NCBI GenBank assembly: GCA_017525905.1
Contig: JAFXSD010000024.1
Location: 62,001 to 126,000, forward strand
Source: Elusimicrobiota bacterium
Lineage (GTDB): Bacteria > Elusimicrobiota > Endomicrobiia > Endomicrobiales > Endomicrobiaceae
Length of the DNA stretch: 64,000 bases
Direction of reading: 5' to 3'
The translations under genes and the position numbers were made by a program. Under the pieces are notes generated by a model, which worked only from the letters and a program-made list of their open reading frames with translations, ran no database searches and was not told the DNA's origin. This document shows positions 15,001 through 31,100 of this stretch, piece after piece. The first letter of the stretch is position 1; every line of letters starts with the position of its first letter.

Positions 15001-18000
15001 ATGAAGAAGCAAGAACAATATTTAGGAACCAGAGGTTGGAGTATGTTGAGAAACAGAGATCAGGAGCAGCAGCAGGTTTAAGAATAGGTCAAAATTTCTT
15101 CTTGCCTCCGATAGCTGATAAAACAGGAATGTCATCGGAAGAATTAATGGCAAGAATGGGCTTACAAGATATGACACCTATTCTTGAGAACGAGAGTTAC
15201 AGACGAACAGCAAGGGGAGTTACTTTTATTGATGCACAGATGAACGGAGGATTAGGATCATCGATAAAGAGATTATTGTGGTTAAAAGCACAAAAGTTCT
15301 TTGAAACATTGAAAAAAACAACCCCTGTTCAAAAATTACAAAAGATATTGTTGAATTTAAGTTTCTTGGATAAAGATACTGAAATAGAAGCACAAACAGC
15401 ATCGTTAAGTGCAAAGGGCTCTGATTTAGGAAGGAATGTAAATTTAGGAACGGAAACGGAACAGAAGGTAGAATATTTACCAATATCGATAATAAAATTC
15501 AGATCATTGTTGTCAAAGATAAAGAAAGGTTTATACAAAAGTGCATCAGTAATAATGTTAACTAGCCCGACATCTGAAGAGATAATAAAGAAATTGTATA
15601 AAGAACCGGCAAAGAGTGAAGATGCTAAGGATATGGGCAAAGATAATCAACATATGATAAACGGAAACGGAGAACATATATTGGAAGTATTTGGTGATCA
15701 AGATATAGCAGAAAATGCAATGATAAGCCAGGCATCATATCCTTCAATAAGGATGGATGGAGATAGATTATCTTTAGCATTTGATAGAGAAGCCCCCGGA
15801 GGACACGGAGTATGGTTAAAGACATTATCTGAAAAATTGAAAGCGGAAGGAGATGTAATAGTATGTATATCTAACTCAGATGCAATTAATAGCGGTACAC
15901 CGGTAGAAGTTTGCGGATACATGATAGAACAGAAAAAAGGTTTAGTAGTATTGGTTGCCACTAGAGAGAAGATAGATAGAAAGGGTGGAGTTGTAGGTTT
16001 GGAAGCAGTTACATTAAAAGACGGAAGAACAATATTTGTTCCGAATATAGATGAACTTGCACAGGCCGAAGCAGCAGGAGAAAAGAATATATTTATGGGA
16101 ATGGGATTTGGAGAATACGAAGGAACAGTACCGTTTAATACGAATACGGTATTAATAAATGCAGGATTATTCCATGCATTTTTGAGTGAATTACAAACGA
16201 TATTGAGTCCGGAAGAATATGCATCGATAATGTCTCCTGATTTGATAACGAACGGGAAATCCGAAGAAAACAAAAAAACAAAAGAAGTTGACAGATGGAT
16301 TCAATTGGAAGGTGCCTTAGGATCAGCCGTATTTAATCTTAATAAGAGATTAGAAATAATGAGGCATGAAGGAAATACAGCAGTAGATGCAATACTTAAT
16401 AAGTACTTCCCTAATGGAATGATAGGATTAGTTCTTGCAGATAAGTCACAGAGAATGTCGATCTTTACACCTGGAAAGTTTGCAGCTGACTATTGGATAT
16501 ATGATAATTTGGGAAAAGTAAATCCTGAGACGTATGCATTGGAAATAGATAGAGCGGAAGCTGTAAATATTGATGCTCCGGTTAAAGTTGGTGAGGCAAG
16601 CACGGTATATGCTGATTACTATTATTTCAAGAGATTCTGGAGAGATTGTACAATAGATAAATTGTCGAACTTATTTATAAATAAAGATGTTAAAGGTGAG
16701 CAACAATTCGGTAAAGTGAAGATGAAAGATGTTGATTTGAGAGGTAATGTAAGAATTAATAATGCGACAACAGAAGACTTATTGATTATACCGGAATTAA
16801 TGGAAACATTAGGTTTTGAAAAGAGTGAGACCGGAAAAGTGATACTTGAGAATGTAAGAATAGATGCTATAGAGAGAAATGGTAACATTGTTTTGGTTGT
16901 TTCTAAACTTATGGACGAAGAGAAAATGGATGAATCATCAACGAGGATATTTACCACCACGGTTGATAAATTAAAAACCACTAAAGCAGAGGGAATTGAT
17001 GGAGAGGAAGGAGCTGTTTTTGGCAGAGCTGAAGATAAATATATTACTCCGTTGGAACAAGAACAGCAAGTAACACCTGTTGATGCAGCAGCAGATATTG
17101 CGGTGGAAACAGCTAAAACTCCTACCGGAGCGGCAGCACAAAAGCAGGCAATAAATATGGTGTTTGAAAACTTGGGTGACGAAATTTCTATAAAATTTGG
17201 TACCTTAACGGAAGCAAGAGTGGCCGGATATACTAAAGTTGCGGCTGTTGTTAGCGGCTCTATTACGGAAAGCCTTATTGAGCAAATGGAGAATAGCGGT
17301 TGGTTGAAAAAAGATTCGAACGGAAACTCTGTGTTGTTAGATGCTGCAGGAAATGTGGTTGCCAAAGTAGGTACTATAAATGGTAAGAGGACACTTGTTT
17401 ATAAAAACGGCAAGCCTGTTATATTCAAATTTAATGCAATGGCGAAATCCGAAGATAAGGATACAATTAATTTCCAATTACATTTGAATAAAGGACCGAG
17501 AGCGATATTTGATTGCTTGAATCCGGAAACGCAGAAACAGTTATTACAAGTGACGGAATTATTGTTAAATGACAGATTGCTTTCAGATCCGGTAGCGGAA
17601 GATAAAATGTTGAAAATATTAGATAAGGTTAAAATTACATCAGATAAACTTAACATTGCTCGTATAGAAACTATCAATAAACAATTAGAGAATAACATAA
17701 AAGCTATAAGAGAGGAATTAACAGAGACTTCTGCTTATACCAATCCTGAAATAGATAATTTATTAAGGTCATCTAATATAAACGGTATTAAATCTGTTCA
17801 AAGACAAGAAACATATTTGAAAGTGACATCGAATACGGATATTGCAGCAAGACTTAATACAATGAGAAATGCCGGTGTAACGGCAGTAATATTGAGAGGC
17901 AAATACACTGCAGATACGATTAAGTTTATAAAGAATCATGGCTTTGATGTTATAATCGAGGTAGAAAGTTTTGATAGAACAGCATTGCAACCGCTTGTGA

Positions 18001-19037
18001 ATGCAGGATTAAGCGGCTTTAGGCTTATTGTTAAGGATGCAGATAAAGTAAGAGAACTAAAGAATGATTATATAAAAATGATGAGAGATATCAATGAAAT
18101 GAATTTTAAGACCATACCTACAATATCTTATGAGTTTGAAGGTTCATTACTAACGGAAAACCAAGATAGTATAATTAACTTTATACAAGATAAAGATGTT
18201 AATGTTGAGTTGGTTGTAGATGCCGCAACTTGTGTTGACAATATTGATGCATTTAAACCTTTAGCGGATATTGCAAAATTAGTTGTTAAAGTTGAAGATA
18301 ACAGAAATATAAATTCGACAATATTATCTAAATTGTATGGTGTTGCAATATGTGCAAACAAAGCATTCGTTACCAACTTGTTCAGAGATAATGTAAAGAA
18401 AAATCCGAGATTTGTTGGCAGAGATGTTGAATTGAGTGAAATATTTAAAGAGAATAAATCTTTAGCCGATATAAGAGATCTTTTAATAGGAAACAAAACA
18501 TTGACGGAAGAAGAACTTGCTGAAACATTTAATATCGAAACAATAAATGCAATAAAAGATTTGTTGGAACAAAATAAGAATAATGGTTTTGATTTGACAA
18601 TGACAGTTAGAGAATACATATTGGGTTCTATGATGGCAACTATAGAAAAAGATATTATTTCAAGTGATGTTCAAGTTGGAGAAAAGAATTATAAGATTTT
18701 GGTGGGAGCGGCATTATTAATGATGGTTAATGGCGCAAGTACTGATTCTATCAATGATATGGTAAATAATATTGAGATTATTGGAACCGGTTCTCTTTCC
18801 GATTTATTGAATGGAAAAGATTCTCAATATGCAAAACTTGCAAAGAATATTTTGGGCAAGATGTGGAAATCCAGTGATATGATGATAGCTGTGGACGGAG
18901 AAGCTGATACAGTAACATTAGCAGGTCTTATAAAACTTATACTTACAATGGATACAATATTACCGGAGAAAGGTTTGTTGGGTTCATCAATGAATGTTTC
19001 GTTAGACGGAATCAAGGGTATCTTGGCAGCTGCATAA
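3..19037 (+). CDS. Giant multidomain membrane protein with GT48-like glucan synthase, metallophosphatase and UDP-glucose pyrophosphorylase-like domains (5' end outside window)
   Basis: The reading frame is open from the first bases, so the gene is truncated on the left and encodes at least 6,344 residues; an internal GTG at 261 is not a credible start. In order (residues counted from base 3): a long beta-rich region (1-1690) with a tandem repeat; membrane segments near 1700, 1765-1815, 2240-2390 and 2470-2515; a GT48-like region (about 2670-3630); a further membrane block (about 3670-4070); an acidic Glu/Ala stretch (about 4120-4170); a PPP-type metallophosphatase (about 4490-4720); a UGP2-type nucleotidyltransferase (about 5020-5630); a possible TIM-barrel piece (about 5940-6130); and the C-terminal tail GIKGILAAA. 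I infer a membrane machine that makes or exports a glucan. The catalytic GT48 part should face the cytoplasm. Domain identities rest on motif alignment from memory; the N-terminal third is unrecognised. Confidence 0.85.
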   Translation, partial: GVSFANRIDAYIKKSSDADNSDLTFGQVIENKKRDEVRALFKEVFGITDDEQAAELLTDEKIDNILKEASINGEDTQATWNEKALEVLLADDAAILEFATTVKDSSLSEEQKESIFGRLNETYYESLKRRLNNATSQKEIDSIKNIVSKSDMILNEDQIKELTADVDWLNMKTPELLEERLTQELGVKVTVTDVTVKRRQVRPGDVYRRYIAIYEVKVEDGKNGITFDYYQYTRDREDTFSIENKLDTYDGMKNMIEAWRALLKKGFQVESKTDENDNQYFEITKSGTDAKINVYLYNIEGEYIFDAEKTEELFNIYSRFEKDLKATKSGYTVEFDTDENNYAIFKVSGYGKTAKIYPFNSSGEVEDMFKYYTPDMAEAIAGMYIYNEGTDSVMQKTVDPVLTAAIEFEQIENELETKLNSRNTASETTEKIIKYSDGTQVIITVTLNKTASGLTGSYIKTFCDAKGEPLIGSDGKPLKIEMSYSSEGGITFTTENGTQQKITKKEEFTTDDGITGVVYAKDISDDEGNYLGTEEFIDYNADGNKDEVSKVFYKNPVIEFETGLTISKTDVTEDSPLNQEELANFLKKALLQNGCDALGRLKDFVFNDIHDGFLLKRTTINGVEHYIYIENVVDNGDGTYTFDVISSPNDQRTQTTKMGTVTIKVEDEYGIIQQSDYKDIFENGVEKNGTEYYPVISKKYDSELEQDPDYRWEIKDGEFVRTYKGKEVKVVYGSSFDIINSQARSYIERGYGKISPARIFDPQYIVVKDDNGEDILISAKDLYRYSQDRESVSIKFDNVSYTSLDYLADKLLEMGIFYDGDNAYSGNNVGVEISNGNEQGIISVNTRQVNNAHFMESIALDATISHDKDGKIVYDAQPQSLQKNNPLVRTSGMNYARMVSEDEDFKYDGSKLSEIFNIISKYCDYDLEGLTWTKIESLSADGKVLNTTWAAYHDSSTPVIKIDTDGNIDFSITYENIESGLRFNLNDSVDQIPSNVVAISGVGKLVFNLAKNTAFIEFEDKDGCLIARQGLYINENSLFIKKDKDAWKSIVEYLSANGWLENTNKILSTYITDEDRFEAETKYVLSLTNNVVVTQDKKWASTLKAWGLDWVINVIEFFGISSKENIKHDGVNLFTRGDRQVFDYVDGVVHLKSEDNQFLDMNLNVTDESHGITLPSQILKLFHTPSNTQTYSAKSQEGNIAEAIPKSSSEMNSLGTDHTNIYSNVENVEGKQGYRNFERILDDQGRVKAEFEYIVNDKGEREYTSAVFVVYSTDGSIAANSITVIIKDGKMVPVKSSDYIGVQEVTLIPKDEMTPQSMPTFGYMSRQLGLAGISQYHFDFNGEDLVENWKTFFNPDQKFNADIEEMIEEYTTSQNIIYNSGEGEIVVAAPKLDEDGKPYFIEFYIYKDESTGGYIDANKQLIPGTADRVYKFFYDKDKGYDFTKYIYNSENPYSDAISISSFASQYDLSGYNEQNGIVYKIDSSQGNRYALTHLFDSKLSSNIEEKRGLRYSAYKSDGSPFFDVCDYSVFKFANGVLGTSTVGDYYEVVVYDKSNVGQYGFLIKKSDFTDGDIQRSVEKIQEKIDAMNAILEGYDGQTDINEYFEQYYEQHPEIVDQVGLQQITKIYQRTEVDKANDRVYMYYYEFDPINSNVNGEISAKMYMHQYTYDFEGNYLSKKRTDIFGDYYKELRENFRDYKYLIFSIAILFGLSVFEKAIGKRINIRKRVPGLRDGDGKGKPDKGDKYQTYDIKGLLSFKTTTEKIFFWAGNIALFGLAFAAYIINPVASLTLLGTTLVMPTFLIPAIFAGFRIVSETIRVLYRRRLIKKLEDTKREPVEQAIRYAEDTIKEIADKVPSLTEKKLTDKDVEGAPGSFFDEKGEMTFDGANLAVQNIIDSLKDSKSDISKEELENIQELLHAITTRFYIEEKDGKYVVKEDCKDLFEKAKTALSLCVERKAVVTMGLNQDNQSLKNALDEKMLKGGYFDSYLIFGRVQPSIMDPEITDELRIYSEQVYSKIAGETYERKSEYTLDDIVLFFYIEKAFANPSPHLTNFRYLLQNYAYEMLKEGNGVAKVGEMIEAKTRKILHYYTKDISKEEQQAQMFAMAEKMGISNSDFAKLVAAKSKREQSKMLDTLDLSGSERKTVELMLEEYPKLEGYNHKFFTPVNFDLLARTVGWAQKFLKEDAATDGTDTFIPELTPYKAYKTPPSKDTRSDLLKAIDLFDKTKALRNELYLKINLRAFSSYHVMLVTIPLSIAMGIVLSPMIGGIVAVAGTMIALGWYFVAPKIMERIQTQSYTQYFGSPIPTRAGKTTAISTEQIRNEYDKRYRLFRLTFVNSVIMLPFMFVFSTAVKWIASAGFLNFLGSLSFFNPVGFAIFTFAALGLIVKAHKDILPYIYKKFPFLTSDFKQLEAKKRVLEKEIGDLNKDIEGLKKEEVVDKEAVKSKERAIKDIEEKIVSIDTEINTKNSVRALAVASVITIVGVALFGIGAGIAPTFVFGGLVIAIMAVLAIKLPKLSLFSVLKIFEASEASKELKAKGLADTGKTWGEFQEAWTNDETFANWKKTLLPDEVIANTEKAVREKRPDLTDEQVAEVVEKIIEYYFAEDWNGIIRNMWLVDAHIGIDEKNAYMYKYTIDGDSNKHYIDGQETFTLMSFDQLLNLVVDGKMKIEKPDFSMEPEDANARERFFEYLKNSRANPSVKVVSFDDYRPLAVRIPTYNEGVLPDLDKESLPSERLNSNEVSPDGSRLITTLASNYENGLKNLLERLDSYPVDENGKKYAYDIFGNKFYLTYDDLKALEALKAMFDKDGHIINGKKLKLLDGTNLPDCKVKQEILLWNANRLQPLARTWIGELHNIEMFKQSARILHPEWSEDDIQEKVLEKFKIVSGYQDFWKIYSDDSNDPRTTAVVQLLELFTEQGYGEYFTVPVMRNRTNYSKEYYDILVEREKIGNLTPFEKELLAKLKELGLDKETNSKATREINSQTSIGIQKVTYEDLMDIIKKLRLYVRTNGIKQEINTVKDAMDLLAKDPHARAQLTEEDELRLKNINNKLITEQEKYFRMVLAKTADIDALTDRDKAVLAKWKELSTVKTGFEKGNVTLEQAEFIFNNLNLDENDKTMMVFYFKREHAYIFPANTRGVTSAFGKVEHASYLNQFIPRGWLIKTSDMNQGTYMEQSQRLPLILSTFVRFKGLIVSSFAEIIDTKSFPSTTASAMGHADRTFNYVTQFVMLSRWFYGHPAIFDSDKTHSVEDQAFMVSEDMMGYMVQITRYYLKNKEDVIRELEAFTKGEMEDKEMENFFKQVFKDSDEKDAEKLYRDMGTILESYISSIAPTIDPKAFMARLRDNDVDAGKLIAALQGLFESLKKAEEVLILEGSPTSYDVSVAVIKLREVCFKNSCGMIQKFASGSSQSFLSYEFYDYVKNSSFADQVLHYIAGPGFYEKDRDALQVVKYVDRNVVLLSISPFSASPGIAVMLGLMGLAMSQTSSLTGFVKINRSYGENIFTGLKNLIMQAPYHMAHMYTQAFGFGGPSVRGDEGEPGGMMDAAYIATGRTARFANGKMFNPDDDSSFYLAFSNSHINANIRLSILSLLGLWLVQSPALMMSAVYMLIPFAVIGAILFYNPGGSVTGADYRMVFKNYREDVSNWVRIIRNGGSQIAKKGGKKVSGNLIMVLTSGIFLFAYATLFNAAAFLFSKKSNAAQKFTAGFIGAGLGALGAFLAASTLPAIAVPLLIAFGAGAMLGIVKIIVDSRTGVRTGSSPVRKAFGVGVSGIVVASILAWFMGAPIAVLLIGVAAMALFFGTRGGMQYPFADSNIREDDLFINMNETVLNNTANIDLEEFKRIFEENVELDTISEEDGLPEGFDINPDNLANAINSVREKYGITKDSKIKYSQLEEFLKDRIEDYKKIEKEQETIKANARTVRNVLLASVASIAIGAFLSAFVASALWLVAPLLLVSSFVFFVSFTSSGKTSTAFAKTLKVFIPMAAFIFLTMFVSLSTGGLGLLVTVALMNLHKFGNSLGKNFAKFRNRDSLSGVRLNAVSPIILIAAVPALLMVLIPGFVSGYKAQKKVIEENREKIKDAYEKNNLEELQELLPTSFSKSKVKEIMERAKERKEADAKAKAEEEAAAEEETESTDEATTEEVAEEKVEEHLISSEGEGETEEDEILETLKEMLPEGNAEIERHFQFWANAVYPLLKGRMSQLKAWAEYVADDRRQYSFKMHLYAENEEDWKNMVEVLSVYLKDSKFSWKTIGSYTLFSDITGEQTGKSFTIYPRDEVEFRKIAQDLDKLFRDKGLTKKGTNIIGDRQLGSTGRIFYRYQYKDIKDRDNILDLGNSEDKKKYDSLYDANRGGDNYLPEEVMAEKEKYDPFINFDPQQAATEGEGAVEVKADETPATADPKELAKKKISAVNEKFGIKAVETTSVGNVAGINMQQITTKVADVSEEEYAEFLATPEEQERLTDAYVQAVNSGRKENGGRQEGTYVDLQGYNGEIIVIGDVHGRLDKLAQKIAANREKLEKGEAIIVFEGDYIHREGRERLRSMNSSMATIQYIMNLKVLYPQNVYMLAGNHDIGRNFSKGGIHQGILFFMNWDEEQGYGNAVDTYENIMRNTLALAAETDEYIITHAGPARDENSKDWRNVLKNMSNIQNEDNRDSLVFQLLWSRANTSDIHQNYNKAHVDEFAGDKTLIVGHTHVKGNFYNSIEENNIVIIEPSDSELNGYGVIDQRLQSAAESAIEEKKESSASLSRKDAEASEAAFERLEQGKETRGRETILAEAEKEFPGITEYVTALEKDLGIENGKVGDGIKVTVRGDEADATIMFTEKATEILSELYGKDVRSTLDSYTRAVVFVSGKNIADMNERDFFLNYVDGEARKIAEERKEQRRISEAAEKAVQKAGENEKRSDQKEGIELTGTEKDELREQVSYGPEFDTLKHALETLKEEYSEANRQALRTAIEAANKVGIDIKKDSLYKEKLDILLLAVMQDHSYKSDGSQYYWDEEARTIFRNQRLEYVEKQRSGAAAGLRIGQNFFLPPIADKTGMSSEELMARMGLQDMTPILENESYRRTARGVTFIDAQMNGGLGSSIKRLLWLKAQKFFETLKKTTPVQKLQKILLNLSFLDKDTEIEAQTASLSAKGSDLGRNVNLGTETEQKVEYLPISIIKFRSLLSKIKKGLYKSASVIMLTSPTSEEIIKKLYKEPAKSEDAKDMGKDNQHMINGNGEHILEVFGDQDIAENAMISQASYPSIRMDGDRLSLAFDREAPGGHGVWLKTLSEKLKAEGDVIVCISNSDAINSGTPVEVCGYMIEQKKGLVVLVATREKIDRKGGVVGLEAVTLKDGRTIFVPNIDELAQAEAAGEKNIFMGMGFGEYEGTVPFNTNTVLINAGLFHAFLSELQTILSPEEYASIMSPDLITNGKSEENKKTKEVDRWIQLEGALGSAVFNLNKRLEIMRHEGNTAVDAILNKYFPNGMIGLVLADKSQRMSIFTPGKFAADYWIYDNLGKVNPETYALEIDRAEAVNIDAPVKVGEASTVYADYYYFKRFWRDCTIDKLSNLFINKDVKGEQQFGKVKMKDVDLRGNVRINNATTEDLLIIPELMETLGFEKSETGKVILENVRIDAIERNGNIVLVVSKLMDEEKMDESSTRIFTTTVDKLKTTKAEGIDGEEGAVFGRAEDKYITPLEQEQQVTPVDAAADIAVETAKTPTGAAAQKQAINMVFENLGDEISIKFGTLTEARVAGYTKVAAVVSGSITESLIEQMENSGWLKKDSNGNSVLLDAAGNVVAKVGTINGKRTLVYKNGKPVIFKFNAMAKSEDKDTINFQLHLNKGPRAIFDCLNPETQKQLLQVTELLLNDRLLSDPVAEDKMLKILDKVKITSDKLNIARIETINKQLENNIKAIREELTETSAYTNPEIDNLLRSSNINGIKSVQRQETYLKVTSNTDIAARLNTMRNAGVTAVILRGKYTADTIKFIKNHGFDVIIEVESFDRTALQPLVNAGLSGFRLIVKDADKVRELKNDYIKMMRDINEMNFKTIPTISYEFEGSLLTENQDSIINFIQDKDVNVELVVDAATCVDNIDAFKPLADIAKLVVKVEDNRNINSTILSKLYGVAICANKAFVTNLFRDNVKKNPRFVGRDVELSEIFKENKSLADIRDLLIGNKTLTEEELAETFNIETINAIKDLLEQNKNNGFDLTMTVREYILGSMMATIEKDIISSDVQVGEKNYKILVGAALLMMVNGASTDSINDMVNNIEIIGTGSLSDLLNGKDSQYAKLAKNILGKMWKSSDMMIAVDGEADTVTLAGLIKLILTMDTILPEKGLLGSSMNVSLDGIKGILAAA
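781..1105 (+). repeat. Tandem ~55-residue coding repeat in the giant protein's N-terminal region
   Basis: Two adjacent units (about 781-920 and 967-1105) encode similar segments with the shared pattern K-x-G-[FY]-x-V-[EF], then TDEN, then an aromatic, then S-G or G-Y-G, then AKI and a closing G-E. They look like repeated small beta-rich domains in the presumed extracytoplasmic part of the protein. The repeat is visible at protein level and is diverged in DNA. Confidence 0.6.
8010..10900 (+). other. GT48 (1,3-beta-glucan/callose synthase)-like domain within the giant gene
   Basis: Blocks match fungal FKS1 and plant callose synthases in the same order. EDANARERFFEYL (near 8040) matches the R-R-I-S-F-F-A block. 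PLAVRIPTYNEGVL (near 8133) matches the 'TVLIPHYSE' block. LLWNANRLQPLARTW (near 8510) matches 'W-A-S-x-R-x-Q-T-L-x-R-T'. KFKIVSGYQDF (near 8650) matches 'KFxxVVSxQ'. YIFPANTRG and SDMNQGTYMEQ (9394-9530) match 'IFxRG' and 'DxNQDNYxEE'. YGHPAIFD and SEDMMGYM (9707-9798) match 'YGHPDxFD' and 'NEDIxAG'. KFASGSSQSFLSYEFY (near 10210) matches 'KVACGNGEQxLSRDxY'. YIATGRTARF with FYLAFSNSHI (10640-10740) matches 'YRATGRGFV' and 'YRLYSRSHF'. Several invariant positions are changed, so activity is not assured. Confidence 0.8.
13470..14170 (+). other. PPP/calcineurin-like metallophosphatase domain within the giant gene
   Basis: The full set of metal-ligand motifs appears in order: GDVHGR (near 13495), GDYIHREGRER (near 13587; the usual GDxxDRG, with the second Asp replaced by His), GNHD (near 13705), THAGPA (near 13876) and GHTHV (near 14076). 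The arrangement is closest to the bacterial Ser/Thr phosphatase (PrpA/B) and diadenosine tetraphosphatase branch. The substrate cannot be told; it could act on a phosphoprotein or a nucleotide. Confidence 0.85.
15070..16880 (+). other. UGP2-family (UDP-glucose pyrophosphorylase) like domain within the giant gene
   Basis: The order of motifs follows eukaryotic-type UTP-glucose-1-phosphate uridylyltransferase. MNGGLGSS (near 15240) is the nucleotide loop. AKGSDLGRNV (near 15412) sits where CKGPKSL is expected, after an insertion. SYPSIR comes near 15735. PGGHGVW (near 15796) matches PPGHGD. ISNSDAINSG (near 15871) matches VSNxDNLGA. REKIDRKGGVV (near 15967) matches the 'T-x-A-D-x-K-G-G' block. 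FNTNTV (near 16135) matches FNTNN. IQLEGALGSAVF (near 16298) matches 'IQLETAVGAAI'. A left-handed-helix-like tail follows. The Lys of KGPK appears to be replaced (K-G-S-D), so catalytic competence is uncertain. Confidence 0.8.
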
Positions 19038-19103: not shown

Positions 19104-22100
19104 ATGAAAAACAAGTATATACAGACATTGCAAAAACTATGTGCAACAATAATTTCTGTGTGTTTTACTGTTACGATTATCACCAACAATTCGTTTTCGG
19201 CTGTTAACCCGGAAACAGCAAAAGCTCAACAACCCTATTTTGAATCAAAAGATAAAACAAATTCTGATTATTTGTTCCCAAGTAAATACGGTAAAATTAT
19301 ATCTTATAACGATAATTTCAGTGATACCGTTATAATAAATATTCAGGATTTACATTGTGATTATTCGGTTCAAAAAAACATATCGGAAATTTTGGGTGAA
19401 ATATCAAAAAAATATAATATAGAAAAAGTTTATGTTGAAGGCGGTATCGGTAACATAGATACAAGTTTGTTGGCAAATATAAATTCTCAATATAAACAAA
19501 ATATTTTGGGAAAACTTTTAAAATCAGGAAAACTTACCGGAACGGAATATTATTCCGCAATAAATAATAAAACGAGTTTATTAAAAGGTGTTGAAGATAA
19601 AGAAATTTATGATAGAAATATACAAAGATTATCAAATGTTTTAAATTCGAAAAAAGAAACAGAACGAATTTTGGAAAACATAAGCAGAGAAATAGATTTT
19701 TTAAAATCAAAATATTTAAATTCGGAAAACAAAAAATTCAGTAAATTGTTGCAGGAATACGAAACCGGAAAAATAAAACAAAAGCAATGGGTTTATAAAT
19801 TAACGGAATATGCAAGAAACAACAAAATAAATTTGAATAATTATCCCAATTTGAATATGTATTTAACCGTTATCGGAGGAGAATTTAACGGGAAAAAAGT
19901 TCAAAAAGAATTGACATCTCTTTTAACTGAAATAAAAAAATCTGTGTCTTATGTTCAGTATCAAACTTTTATAAAAGTAACACAGAATTTGACAAATATA
20001 ACTAAACTAAGAATTTTTACTGAAGAATTTTGTGAAAATCAAAACATAAATTTGCAAAAGAAATATCCTAATCTTGCACAATATTTTATATTGAAAGAAA
20101 AATCATTAAAATATAATCCTGTACAGTTGGTTCAAGAAGAAAGGAAGTTGATGGATGTGTTAAGAACTTATTTGTCGGAAACCGATACGGAATTGGAAAT
20201 TTCTTATCTTAGTGATTTTGAAAATTTTTATAAAGGGTATATAACAGCAAGTTTAACGGAAAGTCAGTGGAAATATGTAAAGATAGGTTTAGATAAATTT
20301 AAAGAATTATATGCAAAATATTCAATACAAAACGATATTGAAAAATTAGAAAAATATTCAAACATTTTAAACGAATTTTATGCCGTAAATACCGAAAGGA
20401 ACCGAATTTTTATTAAGAATATGAAGTTGTCGATTAATTCTTCGATTACTTCCGACTATTCAAGTATATCATCTTCCAATCCGCAAAACATTCTCAGTAA
20501 AGCTAAAAATGTTGTTGTTCTTGTTGCCGGAGGTTATCACACGGATGGTATAACCGAAATCTTAAACGAAAAAAACATTTCAAATATAACAATTACGCCT
20601 AACATATCAAATTTAACAAAAAATTCAAGAGCACAATACGAATATTTGGCACAACAGCAAGTTATGTCGGTTAAACAAATGATAGCATTGGGACTAATAT
20701 CAAATGCAACTGAAAAAGAACAAATTTTAACTATAATAAATTCTTTAATGCCGAATCGAAGTTTGGATGGTGTAGATATAAATATGTTGGTTCAACAGCT
20801 GAATCAAATATTTTTTCAATATATAACCGTTTCATTGATAACTGACGAAAAGAAATTAGAATTTACTCTTCAAGACGGCTCAAAATATAGTTTAAATATC
20901 GATGATGATTTGATTTCGATTATTGAAGAACAAAACAGAAAATCATTTGCGGAAGAATTTTTAATTCGAAGGGAAGGAGAAGACTTAAAAGAAATAGTAA
21001 ATTTAGTATCAAAAGCAACATTTAATTACGGTACAGGTATTTTTGCTCCGCAAATATATCAAATAAGTAAAGATGTATGCTTATTTATGGTAAATAATAA
21101 AAGGCATGTTAAATGGTATTTGGGTAATGGTGCTGTTTGGGAAATTGCAAATTCGGAATATTCCGGACAAACTTTAGATGGAGTAGAACCTATAGTTTAT
21201 GAGTATATGCCGGATATTATGCAAAAGGCATTATTGGAAAAGCAAAGAAAAAATCACAGAAATAAAAGGCATAATTTAAAAGATACGTTTAGTAATATGA
21301 AGAAGGCTATTCTTTATGTGTTTTTAGGAATAGTTTCCATTGCTGTTATTTCTTGTGGAATAATAAAATATAAGATTAGTAATACTGTTAATCAAAAAAT
21401 ATACGAACCGTATAAAATAGTATCAATTGAATTATCCGATAGCCAAAAAGAATTTAATACTGAAATTAAAAATATTGCAAAGCAGTACTATGCGGGTAAT
21501 GGTGCATATAAATCTTTTATCTATAATCTTATTAACGATAAATTACCGGGAACGGCAGCTTCCGGAGATGATAGATATGCACTGATAAATATTGAAAATC
21601 TGTATGATCAAGCTTTAGTTGCATTATCCTATATGCAGGTAGGAGATATTGATAAAGCATCGGAAATTTTAAGTGCAATTGACGCAAGAGGAAATTTGGC
21701 TCAATCGAATTTGGAAACGAGAAAAAAAACAGGAGAATCTGTGTGGGTTGGAATAGCTGCCGTTCAATATAAATTATTAACCGGTGATGATCGTTTTGAT
21801 CACTTGATAGGTCTCGTTGATTCTTATTTGAATAGAGTACGAAGGAGCGGAGGATGTTATTACGGAGAACTTACAAATAATTATGTTTCTACAGAGCATA
21901 TGCTTGACATAATAGCTTATTTTAACTTAAAGTCTTTACTATATACCGACGTGGAATCTGCTGAAGCTAAAGATAATATTAGGCGTTTGAATGAAGCAAT
22001 AGAATTTGTTTATTCTGATTTGTATGTTCCCGAAACAGGATCTTTCAAAAGAGGCAGAAATGATAATTTTCAAGCATTGGATACTTATTCCTGGGGAGTA

Positions 22101-25100
22101 CAAGTTATACATTCTTTAAGGACTGTCAATCCGGAAATATATGATAATTCTTCTTTTTCCAAAATAGATTTAAATAAACTTTTAACTTATGCAGAGCAAA
22201 ATTTTGCTGCAAATTTTGAGTATAAAGGAACAAAATATCAAAACCTTTATAGGTGGAGTGATGAAAAGGACAGTCCGATAAGTTTTGAATGGTCCATGCA
22301 GATGGCAATATCATATAAAATTCTTGGTAATGATAATAAAGCGGAAGCGATAATGAAAGAAGTTGAGAAATACTCAAAAGCTATAATGAAAGATGTAGAG
22401 AAAGACTCAAATGCATTAGGTTTCGGTACTCAAATTCCGTATTCCAATATGAACGGAGTTTATAATTATACGGCAAATGGTTGGAAGGTGTTTGCTGTAC
22501 CTGCTGTTTGTACTACAGTGGGTCAAAGAGTTCAATATGAATACGGTACTTTTTTTCTCCCTATAACGCGAACAGGAGAAAATGAAACTTATACCGTTGA
22601 TGATGAAGAAAATTCACAAAGATTATATTTCGTTAAACAACAAGGTGCTAATTGGAGAACTTACGGAGCACAAGAGACAGTAAATTTGATGTATGCAAAA
22701 ACGATAGAATTTGATTTGGAATTACTAAACGCAAAGGATGTCCCTGATGCAAAAGTACAGCTTCAACTATTAACTGCAGATCCAAACAGCCGGCAAAATT
22801 TAGAAGGATCTTCTTTTGGGCTTTATAATAAGAAATATTCCTTTGATTCCAACGGTAAGTTAACCATTAACCTTGATATGAGAGATTTTTTGGGAACTGA
22901 TAACTATGAACCTCCTCCAATGATAACTACAAATTTAGAATATATAAAACTTATATTAATTGCAGGTGAAACAAGCTTTGAAGAAGATTTAAATTCAAAA
23001 AAATTAGATATTGATATTAAAAAAGTTACTATTACTTACACGGATGGTACAAAAAAAGTATATACTTTGACCGGCAGGCCTAAAATAACAGGAGAAAATC
23101 TTTCTTCTGATATATCTTCGGCTATTCTTCCAAAAACGATTAGCTCTATAAATGATTTGATATCAGGTAAGTCTTTTTCCATCATAAAAGCACTTGCGAA
23201 AATTGTTGATAAAGAAACTTTCAAATCTTTATTTACTCCCATAAAATATATAGAAAATCATATAAATCCCGCAGGGGCGACAATTTTGACAATAGTTACA
23301 GTTATTGCATTGTTTGCAATGTTTTTAACATCTATGTCATTGTTATCCGGAGCATATGTTCCTATAGTGCAGGTTGCTTTATCTGCAGCAGCAGCATTTT
23401 TAGCTGCTTTTGACGTTAATGTAGGAACACATGCTATCATAGATTACAGATTCTTAAAATCTATAGGTTTGTCCGAAGCTATAAAATTGTACGGAAAAGA
23501 CGATGTAAGATTAACGGAATCAGGTAATATTTCAATAGATAACAAAGAACAAACTGTTCCTATATATGTAATAAATGATAAACCCAAAAATGCAAAAGAT
23601 TTTAATTTCAAGTCAGTTCCTATTAAAGTAAAAGCAAAAGATGGTAAATATGTTAAATGTTGGATAGGAAATTATAACAATGCTGCTATTTTGTTTGCGG
23701 ACGGGGCAGATTATGAAGTTATAGTAAAAGAATTCGGTAAAACAAGACAGTTTGAAACAATTTACGGAAAGAAAACAGCATTAAGGGCAAATGTAGACGT
23801 TATAGAAATAGATATGAATAATCCGAAAATAGGACTGAGTTACTCTCAATCCGGCAATGTTATGATTGGTGCCGATATGGTTAGAACCGGAGATATTGTT
23901 GATTTGCAAAAAGAAATTTCTTTGTTAAGAAATAAGAGAGTTGAAACTGTTACAATTAACCAAAATGTTGCTGTATATATTGATGATGAATTAGAAAATA
24001 TTTCGTCTTCACAAGATTTTATGGATGTAATAAATCTGTATATGAATAATAATGATTTGGGAGTGAATGCAAAAATATTGTTTAATGATAAATTTTTTAC
24101 CGGAGATAAAGTTACCGGAAGAAAAGGTTTTCTTGAATTATTAGAACAGGAATATGGTAGTTCGGAAGCTGCAGAAAAAGAATTTATAAGAATTATTGAA
24201 CAACTAAAACAAGAAAATAAAGAGATAGTAGTTGTATTTGATGAAAACGAGGGAGTAACAAGTTTAAATAAATATAAGCAATACGGCATTTTCTCATACA
24301 TAGCAAATAACGAATATGTTGATGGATTAACACAAAGCAAAAGTCAAATAAAATTCGTAACAAATTTAAATCAAATTTTTGGTTTCGACGGCAGTTTGTC
24401 AATAATAAAAGTAAGTGCGTTCAAAGAAGAGTTGGCAAAATCTTCAGGTATATTTACTTTCTTAACTTCTTCTCTTAATTTGAAAGAGTACATAAAAACA
24501 AGGAATGTTAACTTCGTCAAACAGGTAGCAAATAATTTTGACTTTGACCAAATTCCAGTTATTGATATTGAACAAATTGCACAAATTTTAACGGATTCGG
24601 AAAATAAATTTAAAGATTTATCAGAGTATCTCAACGGATCAGATTCAATATCGATATACTATCTCGGCTTAACTGATGATGAACAAAGAGACGCTTTTAT
24701 GGAAGAAATATTAAAAAGAGCATTGGTTGTAAATTATTTAAGGAACTACGAATACGATAAGGCTTACGGATTGAAAGATAAAACATTGGAAGATACTTTA
24801 GCCAAAGCTTTGATTGAAAAATATAAATCGGACAAAACATTTAATGTTGTAAGTGATAAAACTTTAGATGAATCAGTTTCTATGTCCCAATTGCAATTTA
24901 ACTTGTTGCAAGAAATATCCGAGTTGTCGCAAAAAGCATTTGTTCAAGAAACAGAACAAAATAAGGAAAATAAAACAAAAGCCATAGACGATATCATAAA
25001 ATTAATTCCTTTGTATGCGGAACCAAATATAAGACTAAGAACGGCAAATGCTGAAATGATAGATATAAAATCCGTTAAAGGAATTTTAAGTGCCGCATAA
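19104..25100 (+). CDS. Exported 1,998-residue protein: Tiki/TraB-like domain, (alpha/alpha) toroid glycosidase-like domain, ILSAA tail
   Basis: The ATG follows an AAGGA box. Residues 10-33 form a signal peptide or anchor. A Tiki/TraB/ChaN-like domain (about 75-500) shows INIQDLH (His84), YVEGG, an ERN motif and GGYHTDG. A membrane segment lies near 734-754. Residues about 775-1150 resemble (alpha/alpha)6 toroids of glycan-acting enzymes, with TEHMLDIIAYF, a GRNDN-ALDTYSWG block and NGVYNYTANGW. A beta-sandwich-like piece (1150-1330) follows, and then membrane segments at about 1392-1437. The C-terminal part has alternating strand/helix character and ends in VKGILSAA. The protein shares the N-terminal domain with the third giant and the tail with both other giants. 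The function is unknown; a role in processing or sensing an envelope glycan is inference. Confidence 0.8.
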   Translation: MKNKYIQTLQKLCATIISVCFTVTIITNNSFSAVNPETAKAQQPYFESKDKTNSDYLFPSKYGKIISYNDNFSDTVIINIQDLHCDYSVQKNISEILGEISKKYNIEKVYVEGGIGNIDTSLLANINSQYKQNILGKLLKSGKLTGTEYYSAINNKTSLLKGVEDKEIYDRNIQRLSNVLNSKKETERILENISREIDFLKSKYLNSENKKFSKLLQEYETGKIKQKQWVYKLTEYARNNKINLNNYPNLNMYLTVIGGEFNGKKVQKELTSLLTEIKKSVSYVQYQTFIKVTQNLTNITKLRIFTEEFCENQNINLQKKYPNLAQYFILKEKSLKYNPVQLVQEERKLMDVLRTYLSETDTELEISYLSDFENFYKGYITASLTESQWKYVKIGLDKFKELYAKYSIQNDIEKLEKYSNILNEFYAVNTERNRIFIKNMKLSINSSITSDYSSISSSNPQNILSKAKNVVVLVAGGYHTDGITEILNEKNISNITITPNISNLTKNSRAQYEYLAQQQVMSVKQMIALGLISNATEKEQILTIINSLMPNRSLDGVDINMLVQQLNQIFFQYITVSLITDEKKLEFTLQDGSKYSLNIDDDLISIIEEQNRKSFAEEFLIRREGEDLKEIVNLVSKATFNYGTGIFAPQIYQISKDVCLFMVNNKRHVKWYLGNGAVWEIANSEYSGQTLDGVEPIVYEYMPDIMQKALLEKQRKNHRNKRHNLKDTFSNMKKAILYVFLGIVSIAVISCGIIKYKISNTVNQKIYEPYKIVSIELSDSQKEFNTEIKNIAKQYYAGNGAYKSFIYNLINDKLPGTAASGDDRYALINIENLYDQALVALSYMQVGDIDKASEILSAIDARGNLAQSNLETRKKTGESVWVGIAAVQYKLLTGDDRFDHLIGLVDSYLNRVRRSGGCYYGELTNNYVSTEHMLDIIAYFNLKSLLYTDVESAEAKDNIRRLNEAIEFVYSDLYVPETGSFKRGRNDNFQALDTYSWGVQVIHSLRTVNPEIYDNSSFSKIDLNKLLTYAEQNFAANFEYKGTKYQNLYRWSDEKDSPISFEWSMQMAISYKILGNDNKAEAIMKEVEKYSKAIMKDVEKDSNALGFGTQIPYSNMNGVYNYTANGWKVFAVPAVCTTVGQRVQYEYGTFFLPITRTGENETYTVDDEENSQRLYFVKQQGANWRTYGAQETVNLMYAKTIEFDLELLNAKDVPDAKVQLQLLTADPNSRQNLEGSSFGLYNKKYSFDSNGKLTINLDMRDFLGTDNYEPPPMITTNLEYIKLILIAGETSFEEDLNSKKLDIDIKKVTITYTDGTKKVYTLTGRPKITGENLSSDISSAILPKTISSINDLISGKSFSIIKALAKIVDKETFKSLFTPIKYIENHINPAGATILTIVTVIALFAMFLTSMSLLSGAYVPIVQVALSAAAAFLAAFDVNVGTHAIIDYRFLKSIGLSEAIKLYGKDDVRLTESGNISIDNKEQTVPIYVINDKPKNAKDFNFKSVPIKVKAKDGKYVKCWIGNYNNAAILFADGADYEVIVKEFGKTRQFETIYGKKTALRANVDVIEIDMNNPKIGLSYSQSGNVMIGADMVRTGDIVDLQKEISLLRNKRVETVTINQNVAVYIDDELENISSSQDFMDVINLYMNNNDLGVNAKILFNDKFFTGDKVTGRKGFLELLEQEYGSSEAAEKEFIRIIEQLKQENKEIVVVFDENEGVTSLNKYKQYGIFSYIANNEYVDGLTQSKSQIKFVTNLNQIFGFDGSLSIIKVSAFKEELAKSSGIFTFLTSSLNLKEYIKTRNVNFVKQVANNFDFDQIPVIDIEQIAQILTDSENKFKDLSEYLNGSDSISIYYLGLTDDEQRDAFMEEILKRALVVNYLRNYEYDKAYGLKDKTLEDTLAKALIEKYKSDKTFNVVSDKTLDESVSMSQLQFNLLQEISELSQKAFVQETEQNKENKTKAIDDIIKLIPLYAEPNIRLRTANAEMIDIKSVKGILSAA

Positions 25101-25202: not shown

Positions 25203-26906
25203 ATGAGAAAATTAAAAATGTTTTTTATGGATCATTGGGGCAAGATGTCAATAGTTGTTGCTACTGTTGCCCTTATAATAGCATTTGTTGTTTTACTTAT
25301 GAGATTGGATTCTTACGGAAGAAATACAATGCTTGCATATATCCCGATGTATATACTTATGGGAGCAATACAAGCTATTGTTTTTGTAGGTGCATATATG
25401 TTCTTTTTCAGCGGCGGTTTTTCAAAGTTAAAGAAGAACAAAGTAAATACCAGTAAAGTAAATGTTAAATTTTCTGATGTTATAGGTTTCGAAGCGGCAA
25501 AAAAAGAAGCTATGGAAGTTGTGGATATCATAAAGGATAGTGCACGAGTAAAACAAATCGGCGGAAAATTGGTAAAAGGTATTTTGCTTATGGGACCTCC
25601 GGGATGCGGAAAAACTCTTCTTGCAAAAGCTATTGCAACCGAAGCGAAAATGCCTTTTATATCTATAGCCGGAAGTGAATTTGTTGAAGTTTTTGTGGGT
25701 GTTGGAGCATCAAGAGTAAGAAAACTTTTTAAGCAAGCCAGAAAACTTGCTTATACGGAAGGTTCTTGTATAGTTTTTATAGATGAAATTGATGTTATAG
25801 GAAGAGGCAGAACTTTTTCTTATATGGGAGGCGGAGAAGAAACAAACAGTACGCAAAATCAATTGCTCGTTGAGTTGGACGGACTTGAAAGTGCGGGACA
25901 AAATGTTATTGTTATAGCTGCCACAAATGCCAATGAAAATGTTTTGGATAAAGCTCTTTTAAGGCCCGGAAGATTCGACAGAAAAATACAAATAACATTA
26001 CCTACTCTGGAAGAGAGAGAAGATATTTTTAAATATTATTTAGCTAAAATTAAAGCAGGAAAAGATATTGATGTAAGAAAACTGGCTTCTTATACCAAAT
26101 TTAAATCTCCTGCCGAAATAGAAAATATCGTGAAAGAGGCGGCTCTTATATCTACAAGAAACAAAAAATCTTTTGTTGATATGGAAGACTTGTCGTTGGC
26201 AATGGACAGAGTAAATTTAGGTTTGGAAACACACCTTACAATGACACCAAAAGAAAAAGAAATGACGGCATATCATGAATCAGGTCACGCTGTTGCTTTG
26301 TATTTGCTTCATCCTACGGATGAAATTTTTAAAGCATCTTTAAAATCAAGAGGCGGCGCTTTAGGGTTGGTTTATCATACTCCTAAAGAAGAATTACATA
26401 CACAAAGCAAGGAAGAACTTATTGCAGATATTATAGTTGCTCTCGGCGGATATGCAGCCGAAAAAATAAAATACGGAACGACATCAACCGGTGTCTCTTC
26501 GGATTTTCATAAAGCTATGGCAATAGCAAATGCGATGGTATGGAATTTTGGAATGGGGAAAAAAGGTTTTGTCGGTGATTTTTCGGCTATTCCGAAAGAT
26601 AGTATGTCATCAAAACTTAAAGAAGAATTGAATGCGGAAACGATGGAAATAATGAACAGTTGTTTAAATAAAGTGAATGAATGTTTAACTACTGATTGGG
26701 CTATTGTTGAAGATATGGCACAGGAAATGCTGAAAAAAGAAGAATTGACATTTAAGGAAGTTGAAGATATTTTTCAGAGACATGGTAAAGGAAAGAAATC
26801 CGATATAAAGGAAGAAACGAAAGACGATAAAATATCCGAAGATTTAAAAGCAGAAGAAGTTAAAACAGAAAAAAACAGGCAGGAAGAATCGAAGCCTGAG
26901 GACTAA
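25203..26906 (+). CDS. ftsH: FtsH-type membrane AAA+ zinc metalloprotease with short periplasmic loop
   Basis: This 567-residue protein has two N-terminal membrane helices (about 17-37 and 46-70), an AAA+ ATPase and an M41 peptidase. Walker A is GPPGCGKT, the pore loop is EVFVGVGASR, Walker B is VFIDEID, the second region of homology is RPGRFDRK, and the zinc site is HESGH with the distal Asp in GVSSDF. Family members hydrolyse ATP to pull out and degrade membrane proteins. The loop between the helices is only about a dozen residues, whereas standard FtsH has a folded periplasmic domain there; E. coli FtsH is 644 residues. The tail is highly charged. It sits between giant membrane-protein genes and its stop overlaps the next start, so it may serve their quality control (inference). 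It may also not be the only ftsH in the genome. Confidence 0.92.
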   Translation: MRKLKMFFMDHWGKMSIVVATVALIIAFVVLLMRLDSYGRNTMLAYIPMYILMGAIQAIVFVGAYMFFFSGGFSKLKKNKVNTSKVNVKFSDVIGFEAAKKEAMEVVDIIKDSARVKQIGGKLVKGILLMGPPGCGKTLLAKAIATEAKMPFISIAGSEFVEVFVGVGASRVRKLFKQARKLAYTEGSCIVFIDEIDVIGRGRTFSYMGGGEETNSTQNQLLVELDGLESAGQNVIVIAATNANENVLDKALLRPGRFDRKIQITLPTLEEREDIFKYYLAKIKAGKDIDVRKLASYTKFKSPAEIENIVKEAALISTRNKKSFVDMEDLSLAMDRVNLGLETHLTMTPKEKEMTAYHESGHAVALYLLHPTDEIFKASLKSRGGALGLVYHTPKEELHTQSKEELIADIIVALGGYAAEKIKYGTTSTGVSSDFHKAMAIANAMVWNFGMGKKGFVGDFSAIPKDSMSSKLKEELNAETMEIMNSCLNKVNECLTTDWAIVEDMAQEMLKKEELTFKEVEDIFQRHGKGKKSDIKEETKDDKISEDLKAEEVKTEKNRQEESKPED

Positions 26907-27680: not shown

Positions 27681-28109
27681 ATGAAAAAGATAATATCTTT
27701 ACTTATTGGTTTTATTTTTATCTTTAATTTTATTGCTCCGGTTTTTGCATTCCAAACGGGAACCGTAGATGTTGGTTCTTTTGATGAGTTTTCAATTGAA
27801 CAGGTTCAGAAAACTTTTTCAAGTACTTTGTCTCAAGAACAAACATCAAGCAATCAAGATACCGAAAAACAAATGCTGTCTTTAAATGAAGTTTTATGTA
27901 ATGCTCAAAATAATTTTTTCGTTAGACAAAACTCGTTGTCTAATAACTTATTTTTTGAAAACAAAAGTTACGGGTTAAATTATCTTTATCAATACAAACT
28001 GTTTGAAAAAAATGGTTGTTCGAGTGGCATTAGTGAGTATAAAATAAATTTTAATTCGTATATGGCTACGGCTTTATTTGATATTTATGGTGTAGTATTT
28101 TATTTGTGA
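27681..28109 (+). CDS. Small secreted protein, unknown function
   Basis: A 142-residue protein with a clear signal peptide (MKKIISLLIGF..., likely cleavage after VFAF or PVFA), then a Ser/Gln/Thr-rich low-complexity stretch and a C-terminal part with two cysteines. It starts 5 bases after the lipoprotein gene without an obvious Shine-Dalgarno box, so it is probably read by coupling. It is followed at once by an intrinsic terminator, making it the last gene of the protease-lipoprotein unit. No family is recognised. Confidence 0.6.
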   Translation: MKKIISLLIGFIFIFNFIAPVFAFQTGTVDVGSFDEFSIEQVQKTFSSTLSQEQTSSNQDTEKQMLSLNEVLCNAQNNFFVRQNSLSNNLFFENKSYGLNYLYQYKLFEKNGCSSGISEYKINFNSYMATALFDIYGVVFYL

Positions 28110-28113
28110 TTAT

Positions 28114-28144
28114 AAGACTGACATTTTATGTCAGTCTTTTTTTT
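28114..28144 (+). terminator. Intrinsic terminator ending the ftsH unit
   Basis: A perfect 10-bp stem (AAGACTGACA, 28114-28123, with 28129-28138) has a 5-nt loop and runs into eight T residues. It separates the ftsH-lipoprotein unit from the third giant gene, whose ribosome binding site begins only a few bases further on. Confidence 0.88.
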
Positions 28145-28156
28145 ATGGAGATAAAA

Positions 28157-31100
28157 ATGAACAAATTGAAAAAATTATTAACCGCAATAATTTCTTTATC
28201 ATTGTTGATTACAACAATACCGGCAAATGCTTTTTCCGCTTCATATGCCATATTGCCGCAATATGAATTTGATAATTTTGCAAAAATAACTTCGGCAAAC
28301 TTTTGCCAAAACAGTCCTGCGGTTGTTATTAATATTCAAGATTTACACTCCAGCAAAGAAGTTCAGGACAGTATATTTAAATTGTTGGAAAAATTAAATA
28401 ACAAATATGAAAATATGGAAGTATATTTAGAGGGTGCAAGTACTTCTGTAGATTACAATAAATTCTTTTCGAAAATGGAATCGGAAGCAGTATCGGCTTT
28501 AATGAAAGCTCTTTATGAAGATGATAAAATTTCAGGCGCAGAATTTTTTGGATACAAGACAAACAAAATATTGCAACCTACGGAACAAAAAAATGTTTAT
28601 GACAGGAATATTCAAAACTATGCTTTTCTTATAAAAAATAAAAAAGAAATAGAATATCTGTTATCAGAAAAATATTCGAAAATAAAAACACTCGATAAAT
28701 ATTTAACGAAAGGGCAGAGAAAACTCTTAAAGACATATAATGCTTATTTGAGAAAAAAAATTTCAACAGAGAAATTTTATAATAAGGTTTTTTATGAATT
28801 AAATAAAAGGAAAATATCTTCTTTTAAATATATAAATACGAAATTATATTACGATATTTTAAAAGCAAATAAAAAAATAAATCAGACTGCCGCAAAAAAA
28901 CAACTTCAATCTGTCCTTGCCGATTTAAAAAGTAATATATCTTATCAGGATTATGTTAATCTTTTACAGGATTCCAAAAATTTGTCGGACATAAATGTAA
29001 TATTTGCATATTTATCCGCCAATATAAATCCTGCTGATAAAATTACAAAATATCCGGACTTGTTTAAACTTATAAATTTAAGAGAAATTTCATCTTTAAT
29101 AGATCCTCTTGATTTAATAGAAGAAGAAAGAGAGATTGTAGAAGATATTTTGTTATCTTATGCCATGACTGTTGAAAACAGAGATGTTGTTTTCATGAAT
29201 TTATTTTTTCAAGCATATAAAAGTTTTCTGTTGGCCGCTATCTCTTCAAAAGAATATGATTATTATAAACGAAATAACAGTGGATTTGTTAATTTGTATT
29301 CAAAATATATACAAGATGATAATCTTTTTAATTTAAATAAATATGTTTCTGTTGCCGAGTCTTTTAATGAATTAAATTTTGAAAGAAATAAAGCTTTTGT
29401 AGATAATCTTGTGTCAATATCGGATACTGACAATAAAAAAAATAATTATAGAGGAAAACTTTACAGTATAAACAAAATTTTATCCGGTTTGGATACAACA
29501 AAAAATATTAAAGTTATAATTTCCGGCGGTTTTCATACCGAAGGTATAAATGAATTGTTGAGAGAAAAAAATGTTTCATATATAACATTAACTCCGAATG
29601 TTAAAAAAGCGGATTTGATTTATGAACAAAATTATTTGGATAGCATTGTAAAACAGGCTGAAGCCGATATTAATGCAATATCAAAAAAACCGTTTACCGA
29701 AGAAGATGTTAACAGTAAAGCAGATACGATTATTTCAGAGTTAAACAAAATATTGGAATATATAACAAATAAAGGTGTAAAAGAAACAAATGAAATAATT
29801 CAAGCTGTAATCGAACAGTGCGGAGTTGGAGATATAATCAAATTCAACATTGATTCAGAAGGCGTTGCAACGATAAAAACTGACGGTAAAATTTATGTTT
29901 TAAATTATGAGAATGGGATAGTATCTGTAAAAACCGATTTTACAACAACATTGGCGAAAAACATTAAACTTTTAATAAAGAAGGCATTGGGCATTGAAAC
30001 GATAAAGATGAAATTATCTGTTTCTAATCAGGAGTTTAAAGCGAAGGGTGGGAGTGTAGGTGTTGCCAATCAAATTGCTGCAAATTTGTTGTTGAATCAA
30101 AATATTTTGTTACCACAGTTTGCCAATAGAGTTATGAGAGCAATAATAGGGTTGGAACCGGCTTATGAAACAGCTTCAAGCAGAGAATATAGACTTCTTG
30201 AAGAAGTATTGAAACAACAATATAATGATTTGGGGGAAGAGTATCCGAAATTGAGTTCGGACTCTGAAGATAATCCGATAAAAATAGGTTCCAGTCCGCT
30301 ATTGATAGGGGCACAACAAGACGGATACGGAAATGCAGAAGAATACGGTTCTCTTTTTTATGTTGTATGGACCAAACATAAAGAAACCGGTGCGGATATG
30401 GTAAAAGAAGTTTTTGTATCAGATATTCTTTTTTCTAAGTTAGCAGATTTAAGTGATGCTGAAGTGAAACAATTTTTTCAGAATTTAATAACACATGAAA
30501 GATTGGAAATGATAGCTTTAAGCGGAAAAAGTCAGAGATATAATTCTCATAGTGAAAATTTTCCGATGACTTCGGAGGGATTTCACAAATACATAATGGA
30601 AGGTTCTGATTTTAAAGATTTTTTGAAAGACCAAGCCCATTCTGAAAAACAAGTTGAAGCTCAAAGGTCTTTGTTGAAACAATTGGATGATATTATATCT
30701 TCCGTTAATGAACAAAATTCTGAATATTCCGGAATAACTTCTTTAGTATCGTTTGACGAAAAAAGCACTTATTTACCTGAAGATATTGAAAGATTTTTAT
30801 CTGTAAGAACAGGAGAAGAACAAGTTGTTTTGTCGGCAAATAATGCTCTTGCCGATAAAATATGTAAAAAGTTGAAACAGGAATACGATTTAACTCATCA
30901 TAATGGATTTGATGTTAAAGAGTTCGTAAAGTTTGTCAACGATAATTATGCTTTTATATACAAAAATACAAACAAATATATGCATTTTGAAAACTTACCG
31001 GTATTAGTTAAACAATTACTTAGGCAAAAATATATAGAACAATGGAGTAATGACTCACAAAATAAAGCTTTTGTGAGTAGTATATTTTTGCCGATTTATG

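Follow-up and report, generated by a model that had tools for sequence, protein, structure and literature searches.

What part, if any, does a toroid protein encoded directly beside a putative glucan synthase play in the making of a glucan? This question is raised by a stretch of 64,000 nucleotides, which we will refer to as the window (C83:62001–126000), from a 2.03-Mb genome in 127 contigs. The named relatives of this genome are Endomicrobia of the phylum Elusimicrobiota, the nearest of them being Ca. Ruminimicrobiellum and other rumen genomes, and an association with rumen ciliates has been speculated upon for this group in a passage of an earlier study (PMC11257099). A first-pass annotation of the window had described, within the open reading frame P0001 (19104–25100 in the ORF list; 1998 aa), a glycan-linked toroid of the glycosidase type with a beta-sandwich, and had proposed it as the hydrolytic partner of the polymerase encoded next to it. 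All features of the window described below are on the forward strand.

P0001 and the giant upstream of it

The P0001 protein has a signal-like N-terminus, an N-terminal domain in common with P0002 and an internal hydrophobic segment, which are followed by the toroid, the beta-sandwich, more hydrophobic segments and a C-terminal region. Orthologous frames of 1899–2048 aa are present in seven relatives (L004–L010), and the toroid segment, which is 67–69% identical in three relatives, is free of stops in every matched frame. The internal hydrophobic segment (21297–21356) ends in a lipobox-like cysteine, C751, just before the toroid. Of 12 sequences compared, 11 have such a segment and a following Cys ahead of the toroid, and 11 carry net positive charge upstream of it; the segment looks like a lipoprotein signal placed inside the protein. 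The orientations implied by the N-terminal signal-like sequence and by this internal signal are in conflict, and either processing or an odd mode of insertion is needed to reconcile them. An internal start at M733 was considered and dropped, as no convincing ribosome-binding site was seen by eye.

In all eight loci with upstream sequence, the P0001-like gene is located directly 3′ of the C-terminus of a giant open reading frame. Downstream of P0001 are a gene for an FtsH-like AAA/M41 protease (25203–26906; Pfam), which is beside the P0001-like gene in five of the eight loci, and a gene for a putative lipoprotein, P0004 (26906–27676). The C-terminal ends of the window's three giants (3–19037, 19104–25100, and 28106–38257) are alike (GIKGILAAA, SVKGILSAA, and HELLAAA). 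Six P0001 orthologues and the giants upstream of P0001-like genes end similarly (8/8 loci, with the FtsH-like gene adjoining in 5/8), and this shared ending might serve for sorting or degradation. The N-terminal domain of P0001 recurs in the third giant (3383 aa), parts of which look, by eye, like RelA/SpoT-type and nucleotidyltransferase domains.

The upstream giant, of 11,683 aa, begins before the window and spans C83:45986–81037, its C-terminal 6344 aa being encoded at 3–19037. It holds a CrdC-like toroid of its own upstream of the window (C83:59642–60667), a metallophosphatase, a region resembling 1,3-beta-glucan synthases of family GT48 (9300–11399), and a region resembling UTP-glucose-1-phosphate uridylyltransferase (PF01704; 15717–16346), the latter by a match that passes the cut-off (E 5.6e-6). 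A profile built from the GT48 region of 11 relatives matches the PDB entries of FKS1 and GSC2 with E-values of 5.2e-7 to 1e-5, and six of the 11 are matched by PF02364 (best 1.4e-31). Against PF02364, the region in the window itself scores 24 bits, the cut-off being 37.2. Hence, we call it GT48-like: its own score is below the cut-off, whereas the family profile matches FKS1 and some relatives pass the cut-off. GT48 matches in relatives reach 1.8e-64 and 1.1e-32. In a survey with PF02364, 4 of 61 genomes were over the cut-off and 10 of 61 had a match at an E-value of 0.001, the window's own genome not being among them, and none of 14 controls was matched. The putative glucan synthase of the first-pass annotation is thus borne out as a giant carrying a GT48-like domain. 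Searches of a library of papers found no report on GT48 in Elusimicrobia or on CrdC as a glycoside hydrolase, and those for GT48 as a bacterial callose synthase returned works that, judged by title, deal with plants, crops, or algae.

Seven genomes, including that of the window, have a P0001-like gene together with enough upstream sequence. A GT48-like region is present in five of these (G000, G003, G008, G010, and G029) and absent from two (G020 and G026), whose giants (L094 and L095) share their ends with the others and differ in the middle part, where Pfam finds DUF218 and, in G020, also a guanylate-kinase-like match. As these two genomes keep the toroid gene with no GT48 match in the giant, the toroid gene can occur independently of GT48. 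With their shared ends and different middles, the giants look as if cassettes had been swapped within one polypeptide. Among the 99 relative genomes, the toroid was found in 18 and the GT48 region in 14, with both in eight (Fisher p 4e-4, uncorrected for relatedness). This co-occurrence was set aside as evidence, since a profile of the toroid family (A2) finds the toroid in all six GT48-only genomes, mostly by way of a paralog.

A toroid homologous to CrdC

The motif blocks on which the toroid had first been recognized are all present in frame within P0001 as exact matches, viz. TEHMLD (21891–21908), YF (21918–21923), FKRGRNDN (22044–22067), ALDTYSWG (22074–22097), and NYTANGW (22464–22484). 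They are not chance resemblances, because relatives of the toroid (query, window 21441–23213) are found in 18 of 99 relative genomes and the blocks hold the invariant residues of the family. Fifteen loci came from the genome scan, among them L044 and L045, each with an Omnitrophota protein that stands alone.

An AlphaFold model of window 21396–23198, made with 15 relatives, had a pLDDT of 82.9 and a pTM of 0.86, and it contains about 12 helices (model residues 58–383) followed by strands (407–557). The twelve helices are predicted to form a two-layer barrel of the (alpha/alpha)6 six-hairpin glycosidase-like type, which corresponds to P0001 residues 777–1155 (21432–22568). In VIA-align 2 comparisons with 999 PDB chains, the best match was cellobiose 2-epimerase 5zhb (Z 28.9 over model residues 13–385; 321 residues at 3.3 Å), followed among glycosidases by the polysaccharide hydrolase MmpH (Z 28.3), the glucoamylase 1lf6 (Z 27.5), and GH76 (~26). 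All of the toroid matches span model residues near 13–391. Toroid glycosidases and epimerases were likewise matched by Foldseek, with a lowest E-value of 1.8e-7. On this agreement of model and structural matches the proposed toroid fold is nearly certain, and the fold of the model by itself does not distinguish a hydrolase from an epimerase. Use of the PDB entry 5z3a ("Glycosidase") or of GH76 as a guide to function was weighed and dropped for lack of a residue-level structural alignment.

The beta-sandwich that had been proposed after the toroid is also present in the model. However, its strands (P0001 residues 1171–1321; ~22614–23066) run beyond position 22850, where it had been taken to end. 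Modeled alone, the sandwich had a pLDDT of 73.2 and a pTM of 0.71. Its resemblance to carbohydrate-binding modules is weak: the best VIA-align Z is 7.9 (xanthanase), with CBM11, CBM4, and many other such modules near 7, and every Foldseek E-value was at least 0.001.

Searches of Pfam, NCBIfam, and PDB sequences with the toroid gave no usable match, and tblastn of the window's domain against plasmids gave none. Profiles of the whole family and of CrdC matched nothing in the PDB at an E-value below 0.1 (best, GH76 at 0.1 and a GH144-type endo-beta-1,2-glucanase at 0.17), and in Pfam one of six CrdC members touched GH127 (PF07944; E 3.3e-4). The bridge to plasmid relatives is the stand-alone Omnitrophota protein L044, which matches ten plasmid records from Rhizobium, Azospirillum, Massilia, and actinomycetes. 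In hhalign comparisons, a profile of P0001-like toroids matched a CrdC profile with an E-value of 4.8e-12 and one single CrdC with 4.7e-8, and a group of Omnitrophota and Endomicrobiales proteins links the P0001-like toroids and CrdC (8.8e-36 and 8.6e-28). The controls gave 0.18 (GH8 BcsZ), 0.54 (YihS, whose toroid belongs to the fold class with the best structural matches), and 0.44 (GT48 profile). As the homology extends over the toroid and the invariant set of W, E (of STEH), D, W, and E is shared, the P0001 toroid is, as judged from these alignments, very probably a relative of CrdC. At the sequence level, CrdC belongs to a toroid family that is unnamed in the libraries searched. The link to glycans now rests on this homology to a protein of the curdlan operon and no longer on the resemblance of motifs.

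An alignment of 22 sequences from every subgroup, CrdC included (P0001 numbering = alignment position + 764), has seven invariant columns: G877, W881 (21744–21746), E931 (of STEH, with H932 at 21894–21899), G984, D993 (of ALDTYSWG; 22080–22082), W997 (22092–22094), and E1062 (of SFEWSMQ; 22287–22289). D835 of a YD motif (21606–21608) is nearly invariant, and no His is invariant in all 22. Fourteen of the sequences are just 16–28% identical to the toroid of the window. Six of these seven residues are located in the model at positions 1–6 of alternate helices (112–129, 166–182, 228–244, and 297–309), E931, D993, and E1062 each opening one of them, and G984 is placed in a loop. From the order of the helices, those carrying the invariant residues are presumed to form the inner ring, which would bring the acids and tryptophans together at one mouth of the barrel, as a sugar cleft needs.

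CrdC-like toroids and 1,3-glucan synthases

The gene of the Rhizobium match is the third gene after one of HlyD type and a GT2 "cellulose synthase" gene; an Agrobacterium plasmid has this gene order too, and Nitrobacter has the three genes in a different one. For each of crdA, crdS, and crdC of strain ATCC 31749, a qPCR primer pair has been published; the three pairs fit the three genes of Agrobacterium L049, with products of 227, 179, and 248 bp, equal to the values given in the relevant part of the source (PMC4327974). As the primer pairs map with the published product lengths, this three-gene operon is identified as crdASC; the length of crdA is 1455 bp, vs. 1458 as published.

Relatives of CrdC were found on 43 plasmid records, of which 40 were listed. 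By the coordinates, a CrdS-like match is less than 200 bp from the CrdC-like match in 28 of these 40. The other 12 are all from Azospirillum, and a synthase was not seen beside the CrdC relative in them; in the three Azospirillum records inspected, it is absent next to this gene. From the side of the synthase, 60 of 220 records with CrdS-like matches were listed. At least 48% identity is seen in 29 of these, 28 of which have an adjoining toroid, the remaining one (Phyllobacterium) being uncheckable. For the other 31 listed synthases (~35–37% identity; mainly Sinorhizobium and A. fabrum), there is no toroid among the listed records. Those of Sinorhizobium are probably of the mixed-linkage type, for which BgsA has been named (PMC9495663). 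On the basis of this adjacency among matches of at least 48% identity and its absence among those of 35–37%, the toroid goes with synthases of the 1,3-glucan type. Insertions in crdC abolish curdlan production, and the function of CrdC is described as unknown in a portion of a published account (PMC10819609). In Komagataeibacter, according to an excerpt of another study, crdS alone yielded curdlan (PMC6559022), and therefore CrdC is not always needed.

With profile A2, at least one member of the family was found in 28 of 33 genomes searched (24 with a toroid or GT48-region match and nine without). A stand-alone paralog of ~490 aa occurs in many relatives, and in four loci with listed open reading frames, inspected by eye, no synthase-like gene is directly beside it. 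In G000, G003, and G019, this paralog is near a secreted protein that is also found near the Omnitrophota toroid gene of L045 (47–64% identity between G000 and L045). In L045, the toroid is fused to a PilZ domain, and relatives of this kind may be cytoplasmic. The surroundings of the Omnitrophota relative, with flanking GH2-type and GH116 genes and binding-module-like genes, support a glycan-handling role across two phyla.

Several other occurrences of the family are recorded here. Two secreted proteins without Pfam match (L086, 500–1144 and 1137–1772), the first with a GWMGD motif and with a relative near the Omnitrophota toroid, accompany the stand-alone paralog in Elusimicrobiota. A toroid 93% identical to the giant's own copy (L043, 3267–4265) is on a contig titled Bacillota (JAEEHF010000003.1), which is probably a misassigned Endomicrobia contig. 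CrdC-like toroids are also encoded close to the tail and capsid genes of a phage-like plasmid from Massilia (L047, 7290–9002) and, as a weak match, beside the tail genes of a Coprococcus phage (L055, 4104–6110).

Possible roles of the toroid and comparison with known systems

We consider that the P0001 toroid protein may be exported and tethered to the membrane, where it would process glycan as an accessory in the production of a beta-glucan; to this reading we give a probability of about 0.5. The internal lipoprotein-like signal would insert the polypeptide such that the toroid and sandwich face outward from the inner membrane, or are part of a lipoprotein. The sandwich would hold a beta-glucan chain, which the cleft of the toroid would cut, trim, or transfer by means of two of the residues E931, D993, and E1062, and chains from the membrane glucan synthase would thereby be released or exported in the right form, in analogy to GH8 BcsZ/CMCax alongside cellulose synthase. 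That the toroid is a glycan-cleaving enzyme is somewhat more likely than not. A beta-1,3-glucan would be the likeliest polymer, although this choice of substrate is somewhat doubtful. The proposed partnership of toroid and polymerase is plausible, but the two genomes out of seven that have the toroid without a GT48 match argue against a strict one. The wider proposal that rumen Endomicrobia make a callose- or curdlan-like glucan by a GT48-type giant with a UDP-glucose pyrophosphorylase-like part and a toroid, with P0001 providing a second toroid on an arm anchored at the surface and equipped with a sandwich that binds the glucan, is tentative and rather unlikely.

The toroid could instead cleave another polymer, either an exopolysaccharide of the bacterium's own or a glycan of the rumen or host, and have no link to the GT48-like domain. 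The retention of the toroid gene in G020 and G026 would fit with this, as would the stand-alone paralog and its four loci devoid of an adjoining synthase. However, the constant adjacency to the giant (8/8 loci), the second toroid within the GT48-bearing giant itself, and the tie of CrdC to 1,3-glucan synthase all speak against it, and we give it roughly one chance in several. A slightly smaller chance is assigned to a non-catalytic toroid that guides or shields the nascent glucan in export without cutting it. An export guide would equally explain the need for crdC in Agrobacterium curdlan production, and it is in accord with the invariance of W881 and W997 besides the acids and with the weak likeness of the sandwich to binding modules; but binding does not usually call for as many as three acids kept unchanged in all 22 sequences, of which 14 are only 16–28% identical to that of the window. 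A sugar isomerase or epimerase of the AGE superfamily is very improbable. Such epimerases use several catalytic His residues, and none is invariant here; despite the top rank of cellobiose 2-epimerase, glycosidases score nearly as high, and there is no match in Pfam and no sequence similarity to YihS. The differing middle parts of the relatives' giants might suggest a decaying or purely structural, inactive module, but the invariant acids and tryptophans and the conserved, stop-free frames make this equally improbable.

If rumen Endomicrobia do make such a glucan with a GT48-type giant, one toroid family would serve two unrelated 1,3-glucan synthases, GT2 CrdS and GT48, and CrdC would be the enzyme by which chains are processed or released when bacteria export 1,3-glucan. 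A protein known by its mutant phenotype, and of unknown function in the portion of the literature cited (PMC10819609), here finds its place in a family of toroids in which three acids are invariant. This provides a concrete hypothesis for CrdC, as a counterpart of what BcsZ is for cellulose, and names the residues to change. A further implication is that a GT48-type synthase may exist in bacteria.

Among known systems, the AGE-superfamily epimerases and the GH76/GH15-type toroids have their fold in common with the P0001 toroid, but at ~10% identity and with no family-level sequence match. GH8 enzymes form an (alpha/alpha)6 barrel too. BcsZ/CMCax resembles the proposed role as a glucanase alongside a glucan synthase, as described in part of PMC6559022, but it is unrelated in sequence to the toroid, which has no PF01270 match and no homology to BcsZ by hhalign; a search of the window's genome found no GH8. 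The giant's GT48-like region matches FKS1 and GSC2 by profile (E 1e-5 to 5e-7), but it is divergent, forms part of a bacterial polypeptide of 11,683 aa, and is under the Pfam cut-off on its own score. As the neighbors of P0001 in the window (the GT48-like giant and the FtsH-like and lipoprotein genes) do not include the GT2 curdlan synthase CrdS, the toroid is regarded as a homologue of CrdC and not as CrdC itself. CrdC of the Agrobacterium crdASC operon makes up a protein by itself (~426 aa) and is encoded next to a GT2 synthase, whereas the P0001 toroid is one domain in 1998 aa, with a sandwich and an internal lipobox, and adjoins a GT48-like giant; the two have in common a homologous toroid, the same three invariant acids and an association with a gene for a beta-1,3-glucan synthase.
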